Source of the DNA: Oscillospiraceae bacterium
GTDB taxonomy: Bacteria > Bacillota > Clostridia > TANB77 > CAG-508
Reading direction: 5' to 3'
Assembly (NCBI GenBank): GCA_009778695.1
Contig: WRFS01000010.1
Span: 1 to 55,115, forward strand
DNA length: 55,115 nt
Under the pieces are notes generated by a model that was given only the letters and a program-made list of their open reading frames with translations, did no database searches and was not told the origin of the DNA. This document shows, piece by piece, positions 2,820-42,207 of the stretch. A program made the position numbers and the translations under genes. Every line of letters begins with the position of its first letter. The stretch's first letter is position 1.

Positions 2820-3506
2820 ATGATTAAGAAAAGTAAAATTATCTTAATTGTCGTTTCTTCAATAGTATTACTAATAATAGTATTTTTAGGAGTAATGGGA
2901 GCTGGATTTCTGAGCTTTTTGATAGAAATTTTCTCATTATTATTTATATTAATAGGATTGGGATTTAGATATGGCAAAAAAAATTTAAAAATTATTTTGT
3001 CAGCAATAATAGTTATGGTAACTTTAGTTATTATTAATATGAATATGACAAATCCTTTTAAAAATAGAATAGATAATTTAACATGGTATCCTCAATATTT
3101 TGTTATATGGGTTTTGCCTTTACTATTTTTATCAATTGCTCTCGTAGTTAAATATTGTAAAAGAACTTTAAGGATTGTTTTATCAGTAATAATAATTCTA
3201 GTAACTTTATATTGTGGAATGATTTATATTGATGTAGACAGAGTAATTAGAAATGAAGAGCCAATATTTGCATGGAAAACAAATAACAAAAGTGAAATTT
3301 CAGAAAATGTAGTTTTATATAAAGAGTTCGGGATAGATTATAGAGTAATTAATACAACTTTATATCAAGGGTTAGTTTACAAAATAATTATTGAAGATTA
3401 TGAATATGATAACTTACATTTCGGGGAATCAACAACTCTGTATATGTTTGGTAAAAGAAGATTCGTTATTTCTACAGAAAGTATTGCAGTATCTTTCAAA
3501 CCTTGA
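2820..3506 (+). CDS. membrane protein of unknown function
   Basis: A 228-residue protein with about five predicted membrane segments in its first 145 residues, arranged as hydrophobic pairs separated by short basic turns (FRYGKKNLK, KYCKRTLR). The second and third pairs look like internal duplicates: KNLKIILSAIIVMVTL compared with RTLRIVLSVIIILVTL. A soluble C-terminal region of about 80 residues follows. The ATG at 2820 follows GGGGGTG. The frame stops at a single TGA (3504-3506) and then stays open for 36 more codons to a TGA at 3615-3617, so the protein may be truncated by a point mutation or a base error. No function can be assigned. Confidence 0.7.
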   Translation: MIKKSKIILIVVSSIVLLIIVFLGVMGAGFLSFLIEIFSLLFILIGLGFRYGKKNLKIILSAIIVMVTLVIINMNMTNPFKNRIDNLTWYPQYFVIWVLPLLFLSIALVVKYCKRTLRIVLSVIIILVTLYCGMIYIDVDRVIRNEEPIFAWKTNNKSEISENVVLYKEFGIDYRVINTTLYQGLVYKIIIEDYEYDNLHFGESTTLYMFGKRRFVISTESIAVSFKP

Positions 3507-3605
3507 ACTGATAGTGAAATAACAAAATCAACTTTGAAGCCAGTTTATGAGAAATTCAATGATTGGATTTTAAATTATGATAGAGAAGAAATAGAAAAAA
3601 ATCTC

Positions 3606-3634
3606 TTGACAAAATGACGAACATATGTTTAAAT
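3606..3634 (+). promoter_or_regulatory. probable promoter of the restriction-modification pair
   Basis: TTGACA (3606-3611), 17-bp spacer, weak -10 TTAAAT (3629-3634). It lies 130 bases before the methylase start. Confidence 0.5.
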
Positions 3635-3765
3635 ATGAGTTGCAGATATTTAATAAATGAAAAATTTTTGTAGAAAAAAGTATGGCAAAATTTATACTTT
3701 TAATATATAATAAGATTGTTGTTAAAAGTAATAAATTCAGCTTGAAATAATGGGAGGTAGTGCAA

Positions 3766-4857
3766 ATGACAATAAAAGAAAAACTACAAACTGAAAAAGA
3801 TAACAAAAGAGAAGTCTATACTCAATGTCCTGCTGTAAGAAAAAAATATGATGTTATTTCTTTATTTTCAGGGTGTGGTGGATTAGATTTAGGTATAGAA
3901 GGAGATTTCCATTATTTAGGGAAAAAATATATAAAGAATCCGTTTAATGTTGTTTGGGCTAATGATATAAATAAAAAAGCAACAGAAACTTATAAATTGA
4001 ATTTTCCAAATACAAATGTTGTATGTGGAGATATTACGGAAATTTTAAACATCAATAATAATAAACAAACTAATTTTTTTGACAATGAAATTAATCTTCC
4101 AAATGCAGACATTATTATTGGTGGATTTCCGTGTCAAGATTTTAGTTTGGCAGGTAAACGAAAAGGATTGACTGTACAAAGAGGAAATTTATATCAAAGT
4201 ATGGTAAAAGCAGTAGAAATAATAACCCCTAAAATTTTTATTGCAGAAAATGTAAAGGGTTTGATTTCTTGGGAAAACGGATTAGCTATTAAAACTATAA
4301 CTGAAGATTTTGCCAAACTTGGTTATAAAGTTGATTATAAATTATTTAATGCAGCTGACTTCGGTGTCCCTCAAAATAGAGAAAGAGTTATAATTCTTGG
4401 CATTAGAAACGATGTATATGTGGATTTTGAATGGGCTAAACCAACACATACAACAGATTCATGGGTTACAATTAAACAAGCAATAGATGATTTAGTTACT
4501 GAAGATAAACATAATTCTATGCCAAATTGTGGCTATTCAAAAGCAAAATTATTTCCTGGAAAACAAGGTAATATAAAAACTAGTGCTGATAAGCCTGCTC
4601 CTACTATGAGAGCAGAACATCACGGTAATATAGAATTCCATTATTCTTTACCAAGAAGGCTATCTGCTCGTGAAGCCGCTAGGATACAGACTTTTCCAGA
4701 TGATTTTGTTTTTGTTAGTTCTACAACAGATGCATATAGGCAAGTAGGAAATGCTGTTGCACCAGTATTTGCTTGGCATATAGCACAAATGCTAAGGAAT
4801 ATTTTAATAAACATAGAAGCAATGGAGGAGACAAAATATGAATGGAAGTGTATATAA
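3766..4857 (+). CDS. DNA (cytosine-5-)-methyltransferase (type II)
   Basis: A C5 methylase of 363 residues with the usual motif order: motif I DVISLFSGCGGLDLG (S-adenosylmethionine pocket), motif IV GGFPCQDFS with the catalytic Cys, motif VI IAENVKGL, motif VIII QNRERVIILGI, and motif X RQVGNAVAP near the end. The target-recognition stretch between VIII and IX is short, as in four-base specificities. ATG 3766 has GGGAGG eight bases upstream. Its last 20 bases overlap the restriction gene, so the two are translated together and the methylase is made first. It protects the host's own sites against the neighbouring nuclease. Confidence 0.95.
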   Translation: MTIKEKLQTEKDNKREVYTQCPAVRKKYDVISLFSGCGGLDLGIEGDFHYLGKKYIKNPFNVVWANDINKKATETYKLNFPNTNVVCGDITEILNINNNKQTNFFDNEINLPNADIIIGGFPCQDFSLAGKRKGLTVQRGNLYQSMVKAVEIITPKIFIAENVKGLISWENGLAIKTITEDFAKLGYKVDYKLFNAADFGVPQNRERVIILGIRNDVYVDFEWAKPTHTTDSWVTIKQAIDDLVTEDKHNSMPNCGYSKAKLFPGKQGNIKTSADKPAPTMRAEHHGNIEFHYSLPRRLSAREAARIQTFPDDFVFVSSTTDAYRQVGNAVAPVFAWHIAQMLRNILINIEAMEETKYEWKCI

Positions 4858-5485: not shown

Positions 5486-5544
5486 ACATAGTAGGCGTAG
5501 TAAAATAATACAAGAAAATAAAAGAAAGGAAATTGTGGGGAGTA

Positions 5545-7074
5545 ATGACAGAACAAGTTAAAACGCAATTAGAATACATGGATAAAATAAGCAAAATAAA
5601 CAAAGGCAAAAATCTAAAATATCATATTATAACTATGGGATGTCAGTTAAATGAAAATGATTCTGAAAAAATAGCGGGAATGCTTATGAAAATGCAATAT
5701 GCCGAAACAATAGATTCCCATGATGCAAATATATTAATTTTCAACACATGTTGTGTAAGAGAAAACTCAGAAGAAAAATTATTTGGCAAAATAGGAGAAA
5801 CAAAAAAACTTCGCAAAGAAAAAGGCACTATTGTGGCAATATGTGGTTGCATGATGCAAGAAAAACACATTACAGAAAAAATCAAAAAAAGTTATCCATT
5901 TATTGATATAATCTTTGGAACGCATACATTATATAAGTTTGCCGAAGACTTATATAATTTGTTGCAAAATAAGAAAAAAATAGTGGATGTTATCGATATA
6001 GATGGTGAAATTTACGAAGGACTTCCAATAAAGCGAAATGATAATAAAAAAGCAAATGTCATAATAATGTATGGGTGTAATAACTTTTGTTCTTATTGTA
6101 TTGTACCGTATGTAAGGGGTAGGGAAAGAAGTAGAAGTCCACAGGACATATTAAACGAGGTTAGGGAGTTGGCAAAAGAAGGCTATAAAGAAATTACTTT
6201 GCTGGGGCAAAACGTGAATTCGTATGCAGGGAAATGTAGGGGCGAACTGTGTTCGCCCGAGATGCCACTGCGAGAGGTGTTTCTTCCTCAGGCGAACGCA
6301 GTTCGCCCCTACACGGACAACACCTCTCTCCGTTTACGCTACTCTGAATACGGAAATGCACTTGACCAAACTTGGGACTTTGCAATCCTACTAAAAGAAG
6401 TAGCAAAAATTGATGGCATAGAAACCATTCGTTTTTTATCTCCACATCCAAAAGATTTTACAGATGAAGTAATAGAGGCTATTTCTGAAAATAAAAAGGT
6501 AAGTAGATGGATTCATTTGCCTTTACAATCTGGAAGTACTAATGTGCTTAAATTGATGAATAGAAAATATACGAAAGAACAGTATTTAAACTTAGTTGAA
6601 AAAATTAAAAACAAAATTCCAGATGTAGTGCTTTCAACAGATATAATTGTAGGATTTCCAGGAGAAACAGAAGAAGACTTTGAAGACACGCTAGAAGTTG
6701 TAAAAAAAGTTGGATTTGAGCAAGTATATATGTTTATATATTCTAAAAGAATTGGAACACCAGCAGCAGAGGCTCAAGACCAAATTTCAGAAGATATAAA
6801 ACATAAAAGATTTGATAGATTAAAAAAGCTAGTAGATGCAGAGGTTCAAAAGAATAATCAAAAATACATAGGCAAAACAGAAAAAATACTGGTAGAAGGA
6901 TTTAGTAAAAACAATGAAAATATGTTGACTGGAAGAAACAGTGCAAATAAGATAATTGTGTTTGAAGGCAATTCTGATTTAATAGGAAAAACTGTAGAAA
7001 TAAAGATAACTTCGGAACATCAATGGTATTTAAGAGGGAAAGTAGAAAATAATATCGAACGCACAAGCAAATAA
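5545..7074 (+). CDS. miaB: tRNA-2-methylthio-N6-dimethylallyladenosine synthase
   Basis: A radical-SAM methylthiotransferase that adds the methylthio group to i6A37 of tRNAs reading UNN codons. N-terminal cluster cysteines appear in TMGCQLNENDSE, NTCCVRENSE and CGCMM; the radical-SAM triad is in YGCNNFCSYCIVPYVRGRERS; the C-terminal TRAM region ends the protein. ATG 5545 is used; TTG 5533 is an alternative. Between GQNVNSYAG and DFAILLKEV, where the family has only a few residues, there is an in-frame insert of about 48 residues. It is encoded by palindromic DNA (6235-6328). The insert lies after the SAM core's third strand, so the enzyme may tolerate it. Confidence 0.95.
   Translation: MTEQVKTQLEYMDKISKINKGKNLKYHIITMGCQLNENDSEKIAGMLMKMQYAETIDSHDANILIFNTCCVRENSEEKLFGKIGETKKLRKEKGTIVAICGCMMQEKHITEKIKKSYPFIDIIFGTHTLYKFAEDLYNLLQNKKKIVDVIDIDGEIYEGLPIKRNDNKKANVIIMYGCNNFCSYCIVPYVRGRERSRSPQDILNEVRELAKEGYKEITLLGQNVNSYAGKCRGELCSPEMPLREVFLPQANAVRPYTDNTSLRLRYSEYGNALDQTWDFAILLKEVAKIDGIETIRFLSPHPKDFTDEVIEAISENKKVSRWIHLPLQSGSTNVLKLMNRKYTKEQYLNLVEKIKNKIPDVVLSTDIIVGFPGETEEDFEDTLEVVKKVGFEQVYMFIYSKRIGTPAAEAQDQISEDIKHKRFDRLKKLVDAEVQKNNQKYIGKTEKILVEGFSKNNENMLTGRNSANKIIVFEGNSDLIGKTVEIKITSEHQWYLRGKVENNIERTSK
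6235..6328. repeat. TGTAGGGG-type palindromic insert inside miaB
   Basis: Arms TGTAGGGGCGAAC (from 6235) and GTTCGCCCCTACA (301-313 of the block, ending 6313) are complementary. Each arm is also a small hairpin (GGGCGAAC/GTTCGCCC; GGCGAAC/GTTCGCC). A second pair, GAGAGGTGTT (6272-6281) and AACACCTCTC (6319-6328), interleaves with the first. The frame stays open through the repeat. Confidence 0.85.
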
Positions 7075-42120: not shown

Positions 42121-42207
42121 TGTAGGGGCGAACATTGTTCGTCCGAGAGATAATATTATTGAAAACGGTGTAATTATAGTGCAGGACGAACGATGTTCGC
42201 CCCTACA
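42121..42207. repeat. TGTAGGGG-type foldback, intergenic copy
   Basis: TGTAGGGGCGAACATTG (from 42121) is complementary to the segment ending GTTCGCCCCTACA (42207), with 23 of 24 bases paired. The space between is AT-rich. It lies 38 bases before the start of the next gene. Confidence 0.85.

Follow-up and report, generated by a model that had tools for sequence, protein, structure and literature searches.

A GTAG-type REP dimer nested with a second palindromic repeat and translated in frame within miaB of a Clostridia bacterium

Palindromic repeats described inside genes

The closest described systems are the GTAG REPs, with their BIME and REPIN arrangements, and the RAYT (REP-associated tyrosine transposase, TnpAREP) proteins (PMC2817692, PMC3116915, PMC3733652, PMC8266576). 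The rayt genes are reported to be always accompanied by two inverted flanking REPs (PMC2817692), and REP doublets have been described (PMC3116915). The biochemistry of RAYT cutting is available together with that of the 23-nt REPSm, the mechanism of REP spread being termed poorly understood in the same source (PMC8266576). In 2013, GTAG and CGTC REPs were described inside genes, many of them for DNA synthesis or repair and also for tRNA pseudouridine synthases; hosts in O. terrae include UvrABC, RecBCD, DNA polymerase I and DNA ligase, in-frame RPEs were noted as well, and the main text makes no mention of Firmicutes (PMC3733652). RPEs in ORFs have been reviewed (PMC2229807).

The repeats reported here share with the GTAG REP/RAYT systems the GTAG at the 5' foot, a short stem and loop, high copy number, outward-facing dimers, compensatory stems, a RAYT that in one relative stands between inverted REPs, and intragenic copies, many in DNA repair genes. 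A 23-nt unit with an 8-bp stem and a 3-nt loop is also the architecture given for the S. maltophilia REPSm in PMC8266576. They differ in their Clostridia host, in the nesting of a REP within another palindromic repeat inside a gene, and in RAYTs of two genera that are tagged with their own REP. The earlier note on this DNA had likened the insert to the Rickettsia palindromic elements (RPE). Compared by description (PMC2229807), both are in-frame mobile palindromes translated within conserved genes, with a working enzyme expected, but the RPEs measure 105–146 bp, whereas here the units are of 23 nt, a RAYT-type transposase is also present, and the insert consists of two REPs and a second repeat family. 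Furthermore, CGTC is the tag of R. conorii RPEs (PMC3733652), and the free end of the miaB units is GTAG. With the coding MITEs of enterobacteria and Neisseria (PMC2229807) the insert shares the fusion in frame of small non-autonomous elements, but here there are REP hairpins and a RAYT, and no target-site duplication fits.

GTAG REPs that keep the frame of their host genes, many of these for repair, have been on record for other phyla since 2013, so the present copies are of a known kind in a new host lineage, and they extend translated RAYT-type REPs to an uncultured lineage of Clostridia. Neither REPs inside RAYT genes nor translated REPs in Clostridia were the subject of a title or abstract opening among the open-access papers listed, of which PMC3733652 came nearest.

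Structure of the insert in miaB

The window, that is, the whole stretch of DNA analysed, comprises 55,115 nt of a 1.88-Mb draft genome with an estimated contamination of 7%. The miaB gene, for tRNA (N6-isopentenyladenosine(37)-C2)-methylthiotransferase, occupies positions 5533–7074 of the plus strand as an uninterrupted ORF of 513 aa, with the cluster cysteines retained and 519.5 bits against TIGR01574 (cut-off 355.3). From its position downstream of GGGGAG, the ATG at 5545 is the likelier start. The gene is single-copy, with no second match at E ≤ 1e-60 in its own genome. A palindromic insert with an open frame had been claimed for this locus, and both the frame and the repeat arms were confirmed.

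The added stretch, which follows the invariant QNVNSY and precedes the next conserved helix, is put at approximately positions 6229–6350 on the plus strand and corresponds to MiaB residues 232–278. Its outer arms (6235–6261 and 6287–6313, 27 nt) are 93% complementary, and a second inverted pair (6267–6281 and 6319–6333, 15 nt) reaches 87%. The two GGCGAAC hairpins of the earlier note are present at 6240–6258 and 6291–6307, and each belongs to a REP unit. Unit 1 (6236–6258, plus strand) carries GTAG at 6236–6239, the stem GGGCGAAC/GTTCGCCC and the loop TGT, and is read as TGT AGG GGC GAA ..., giving the peptide CRGELCSPE. Unit 2 (6290–6312, minus strand) is inverted, with GTAG facing outward at 6309–6312, the stem GGCGAAC/GTTCGCC and the loop GCA on the plus strand; it shows one mismatch to the family pattern and gives the peptide QANAVRPYT. 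The GTAG at the 5' foot is unpaired in both units, exact in unit 1 and in reverse orientation in unit 2, and the stems of 8 bp and 7 bp with 3-nt loops lie within the superfamily range (stem 5–13 bp, short loop). Both units together form a dimer with the GTAG ends outside (6235–6313, unstranded), as in the head-head dimer, BIME or REPIN arrangement.

The pattern GTAGGGGCGA..TCGCCC matched once in the window and in none of 100 shuffles. A second head-head dimer of the same family is intergenic (42122–42206, unstranded), and a decayed unit, GTTGGGGCGAACTGCATTCGCCC, lies on the minus strand at 18939–18961. In an Rfam scan of the window the gathering score was reached only by 5S rRNA and a tRNA.

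The second inverted pair had been regarded as interleaved with the hairpins in one element. It is part of a separate family, element B, and not of the REP. Element B is a hairpin repeat of 60–70 nt, present at five places in its own genome (contigs C19, C5, C4 and C18, and miaB) and absent from the 37 other genomes searched. In miaB, its left arm, ACTGCGAGAGGTGTT, with the stem letters GGTG, is at 6267–6281 and its right part, CGGACAACACCTCTCTCCGTTTACGCTACT, at 6314–6343, both on the plus strand, the latter with 93% identity to positions 16612–16641 of C19. The stem covaries on both sides (GATATGTT/AACATATC; AAGGTGTT/AACACCTT on C18; GAGGTGTT/AACACCTC in miaB). The reversed REP unit 2 occupies the loop of element B and the forward unit 1 stands at its left edge; the interleaving is therefore a nesting of two repeat families.

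The distance between the motifs GQNVNSY and HPKD is 73 residues in this MiaB. Among 107 other MiaB proteins (some species represented twice, two loci without a motif match left out) it is 29–49 residues in 104 and 62, 71 and 90 in the remaining three, and the site is naturally variable in length. The figure of about 48 added residues is fair in relation to the shortest relatives, but the statement that the family has only a few residues at this site is not, and the idea that relatives have no long loops fails for three of the 107. These three long loops are AT-rich and without strong hairpins. The alignment of homologues proposed in the earlier note gave the same picture for the relatives G016 and G015, in which MiaB is alignable in one piece and the long inserts are AT-rich and without strong hairpins. 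For the proposed structural check, an AlphaFold model from 35 sequences had a mean pLDDT of 80.9 with values under 50 for residues 232–278, which are predicted to form a disordered loop. The model superposes on the solved MiaB 7mjw with a TM score of 0.92 by target length; in the solved chain, the junction of the two aligned parts falls between residues 221 and 228. The cluster cysteines are present, as are the columns invariant across 35 MiaB proteins, and the near relatives are 59–68% identical. MiaB with this loop probably still works as an enzyme.

The REP family, its host genes and RAYT candidates

The family pattern GTAGGGGCGAACNNNGTTCGYCC, with up to three mismatches, gave 141 matches (69 + 72) in the 1.88-Mb genome and none with the reversed-pattern control; the stricter general form GTAGGGGCGN{4,14}CGCCC gave 30, again with none in the control. 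At least 115 distinct units in at least 74 clusters were obtained from 100 of the 141 matches and the 30 strict matches, and 132 units in 82 clusters from 275,047 bases of extracted stretches. The units are 23-nt GTAG hairpins that occur singly, in tandem or as dimers, without fixed terminal inverted repeats, and at least 22 clusters hold a dimer with an identical 52-nt spacing and the GTAG ends outward. Of the 55 genomes searched in the order besides its own (56 in all), 13 have the frame GTAGGGGCG..CGYCC. Among the matches listed, the stem letters are genome-specific (GAAC/GTTC, GATT/AATC, GACC/GGTC), and since each genome has its own letters on both sides of the loop, the change is compensatory. 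The miaB units fit the GTAG REPs in tag, stem and loop, copy number, dimers and a mostly extragenic location.

REPs are mostly intergenic: in the source genome 57 of 71 clusters lie outside ORFs of at least 150 aa and 14 inside, a few of the latter being antisense or in short ORFs and maybe spurious, compared with 66% of random 23-nt windows inside. In the relatives the clusters inside such ORFs are 0/43 (G004), 0/11 (G001), 0/11 (G006) and 4/21 (G020), with fractions of 0.52–0.67 for random windows over all five genomes; in G020, two of the four fall within the RAYT and the other two seem spurious. REPs accordingly avoid genes, and the source genome is more tolerant than its relatives. The idea that in-frame REPs are general across the family was abandoned, as REPs within genes are absent, or nearly so, from the four relatives checked.

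In the source genome, REPs that keep the frame and match the family on both sides are present in eleven host genes: miaB, polA, ligA, prmC, rho, relA/spoT, an ogg-type glycosylase gene, addB, and the genes of a glycogen debranching enzyme, a P-type ATPase and an Lhr-like helicase. The copy in rho is probably a decayed REP. In-frame REPs also occur twice in the genome's own RAYT gene (contig C42) and once each in a 765-aa ORF on C27, which has no Pfam match, and in a 407-aa ORF on C5. The nine single-unit copies (relA/spoT, rho, debranching enzyme, ATPase, ogg-type, prmC, ligA, polA and Lhr-like) are all sense-side up in the GTA frame, giving V-x-x-N, and the dimers in miaB and addB use the frame reading CRGEL. 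The nearest relative of LigA (77% identity) is without exactly the nine residues VGANIVRPN, which are absent from 25 of 25 other rows, and PolA is some 19 residues longer than its nearest relative at the REP site. Natural pairs with and without the REP peptide, as compared for LigA and PolA, constitute a test set for the neutrality of the insert. By our own sorting and with no background comparison, five of the eleven hosts are of repair type (polA, ligA, addB, ogg-type and Lhr-like), and most of these are long genes; gene length alone may explain such hits, which repeat in a new phylum the observation of 2013.

Further REP-like peptides, VGVHDCT, are held by the addB and P-type ATPase ORFs. 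The sequence suggests that a second, GTAGGGG-headed palindrome family is also translated in frame.

At least two arrays break genes, a lower bound, as a mechanical scan for disrupted genes returned 14 candidates. In queA (contig C43, about 2831–4181), an array of 42-nt units (VGAPAHRYPGCTTN) that ends in a REP divides the gene over two frames, and both parts match QueA. A baiN-like flavoprotein gene (contig C12, 41568–41747) is broken by four tandem REPs with a 51-nt period, the first unit giving an in-frame TAG; the two parts of the gene are in different frames, and one and the same family is matched by both.

RAYT candidates stand beside REPs in relatives. In G020, a 149-aa RAYT-like ORF is bordered by a pair of inverted REPs of its own type, and in G004 a RAYT-like ORF has REPs on both sides. 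Two RAYT genes from two genera, one in the source genome (locus L010, 1432–2043, contig C42; 203 aa) and one in G020 (locus L259, 745–1338, contig C12), contain, without loss of frame, the REP type of the genome they belong to. The two loops concerned correspond between the genes, the first preceding the core and the second directly following the HUH motif (PNHIH). No REP was detected by pattern search in the RAYTs of three further loci (L260–L262). The RAYT on C42 matched NCBIfam NF047646 (REP_Tyr_transpos) with E 6e-19 and 68 bits, below the cut-off of 80, and its REP is of the GGAT type; that of miaB is of the GAAC type. It stands between genes that we take, from reading the sequence, to be rpoB and rpoC. 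Two further RAYT pieces are cut by contig ends, with one upstream REP of the GAGC type, and these pieces are the likeliest RAYTs for the GAAC type. Two RAYT copies with a common 123-nt end are situated exactly at the ends of contigs C44 and C29 (loci L011 and L012), where repeated RAYTs probably break the assembly. Pfam Y1_Tnp tracks REPs poorly, with matches in 9 of 14 REP-bearing and 23 of 42 REP-free genomes, short RAYTs barely exceeding its cut-off.

Orientation of the copies and origin of the insert

Single REPs between co-directional genes are sense to antisense in a ratio of 62:6 over five genomes (18:3 in the source genome, 6:0 in G001, 26:1 in G004, 8:1 in G006 and 4:1 in G020). As the bias is present between genes too, the sense-side preference is not solely due to selection at the protein level. 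In G004, every one of the 46 REPs on the contigs tested runs in the direction of its contig, while 20 of the 115 ORFs on these contigs run against it, and ten of the 46 REPs adjoin a gene of opposite direction. The contig directions were assigned from matches that do not include two places of the other sign, a two-headed one and one next to the RAYT. Single REPs are uniformly oriented along whole contigs, e.g. C1, C2, C9 and C14 of G004. REP direction agrees with the gene majority in 119 of 135 cases and with GC skew in 119 of 135, with one conflict case each way; because of this tie, replication and transcription are not separated as causes of the bias. Insertion into the lagging-strand template has been reported for IS200/IS605 elements (PMC6006769), and by analogy we read the bias as such insertion, with transcription as the alternative. 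The bias and the uniform contig direction would be a genomic signature of single-strand, probably replication-linked REP spread. The new details are the composite nesting, the strand bias and the self-tagged RAYT genes, the last two being fresher.

With a probability of roughly 0.85, two mobile repeats together make up the insert, in a loop of miaB that tolerates them, the REPs having probably been spread by RAYT and the in-frame copies left by purifying selection. A RAYT would recognise the GTAG hairpin, cut nearby and join the REP into exposed single-stranded DNA, mainly the lagging-strand template, which would be the coding strand of co-directional genes. Element B and the GTAG-tagged dimer would have come into the miaB loop, copies breaking needed genes would be lost, and those that happen to lengthen a surface loop by whole codons would persist as translated passengers. 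What the sequences show are the repeats and their family, the open frame, the variable loop, the in-frame copies in other conserved genes and the REP-flanked RAYTs in a relative; the RAYT as mover, the single-strand insertion and the neutrality for MiaB are what we infer.

A loss of MiaB function despite the open frame, with miaB in decay, was considered, as queA, which also concerns tRNA modification, and the baiN-like gene are broken by such arrays in the same genome; it is unlikely in view of the conserved cysteines and invariant columns, the identity to near relatives and the restriction of the insert to a length-variable loop. The hairpins might also have been recruited as an mRNA or DNA signal (attenuation, mRNA stability or pseudoknot control), the insert being kept for regulation. 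The fold is indeed very stable: the energy minimum of the miaB mRNA is a plain hairpin between REP units 1 and 2 of −56.5 kcal/mol (z = −5.8, none of 200 shuffles as good), and it competes with an alternative of −47.3 kcal/mol in which the element B stem is enforced around the REP unit 2 hairpin. Nothing links this fold to miaB, however, and the units are for the most part intergenic, with those inside genes spread over many hosts at positions that bear no relation to one another, which makes a regulatory role improbable. The pseudoknot previously suggested finds no support in either fold, the minimum and the alternative both being fully nested under an energy model that excludes pseudoknots; a pseudoknot is not needed, and one of both full-length stems looks, judging from the coordinates, sterically implausible, as the 5-nt link at 6314–6318 would have to bridge a 27-bp stem.

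A MITE of the classical type, mobilised by a DDE transposase and framed by a target-site duplication, would agree with the inverted arrangement and with GGAAATG at both 6230–6236 and 6352–6358. These copies are 122 nt apart, which is not a multiple of three, so removal would not restore the frame, and no frame-restoring direct repeat is provided by this pair; the occurrence of 23-nt GTAG hairpins singly, in tandem and as dimers, rather than as fixed terminal inverted repeats, likewise makes this origin very improbable. An assembly or sequencing artefact is hardly credible: the insert lies on a single contig of a draft genome, but the frame is kept, the family is present on many contigs, and similar insertions occur in about a dozen other genes. 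A wider proposal, which we consider doubtful though conceivable, is that the REP acts as a translatable module. Strand-specific RAYT insertion into the lagging-strand template would bring it into genes nearly always with the sense side up, its commonest frame giving the mild peptide V-G-A-N-I-V-R-P with no stop, and replication, repair and tRNA-modification proteins would gain short loops frequently enough to make this an evolutionary route, with RAYTs tagging themselves with their own REP in two genera. Such self-tagging may control the transposase, or it may keep the REP linked to its enzyme.

Just upstream of miaB, the window contains a type II restriction-modification pair, in which a C5-cytosine methyltransferase gene (PF00145, 3760–4857) overlaps that of a ThaI-type restriction endonuclease (PF15514, 4838–5485).
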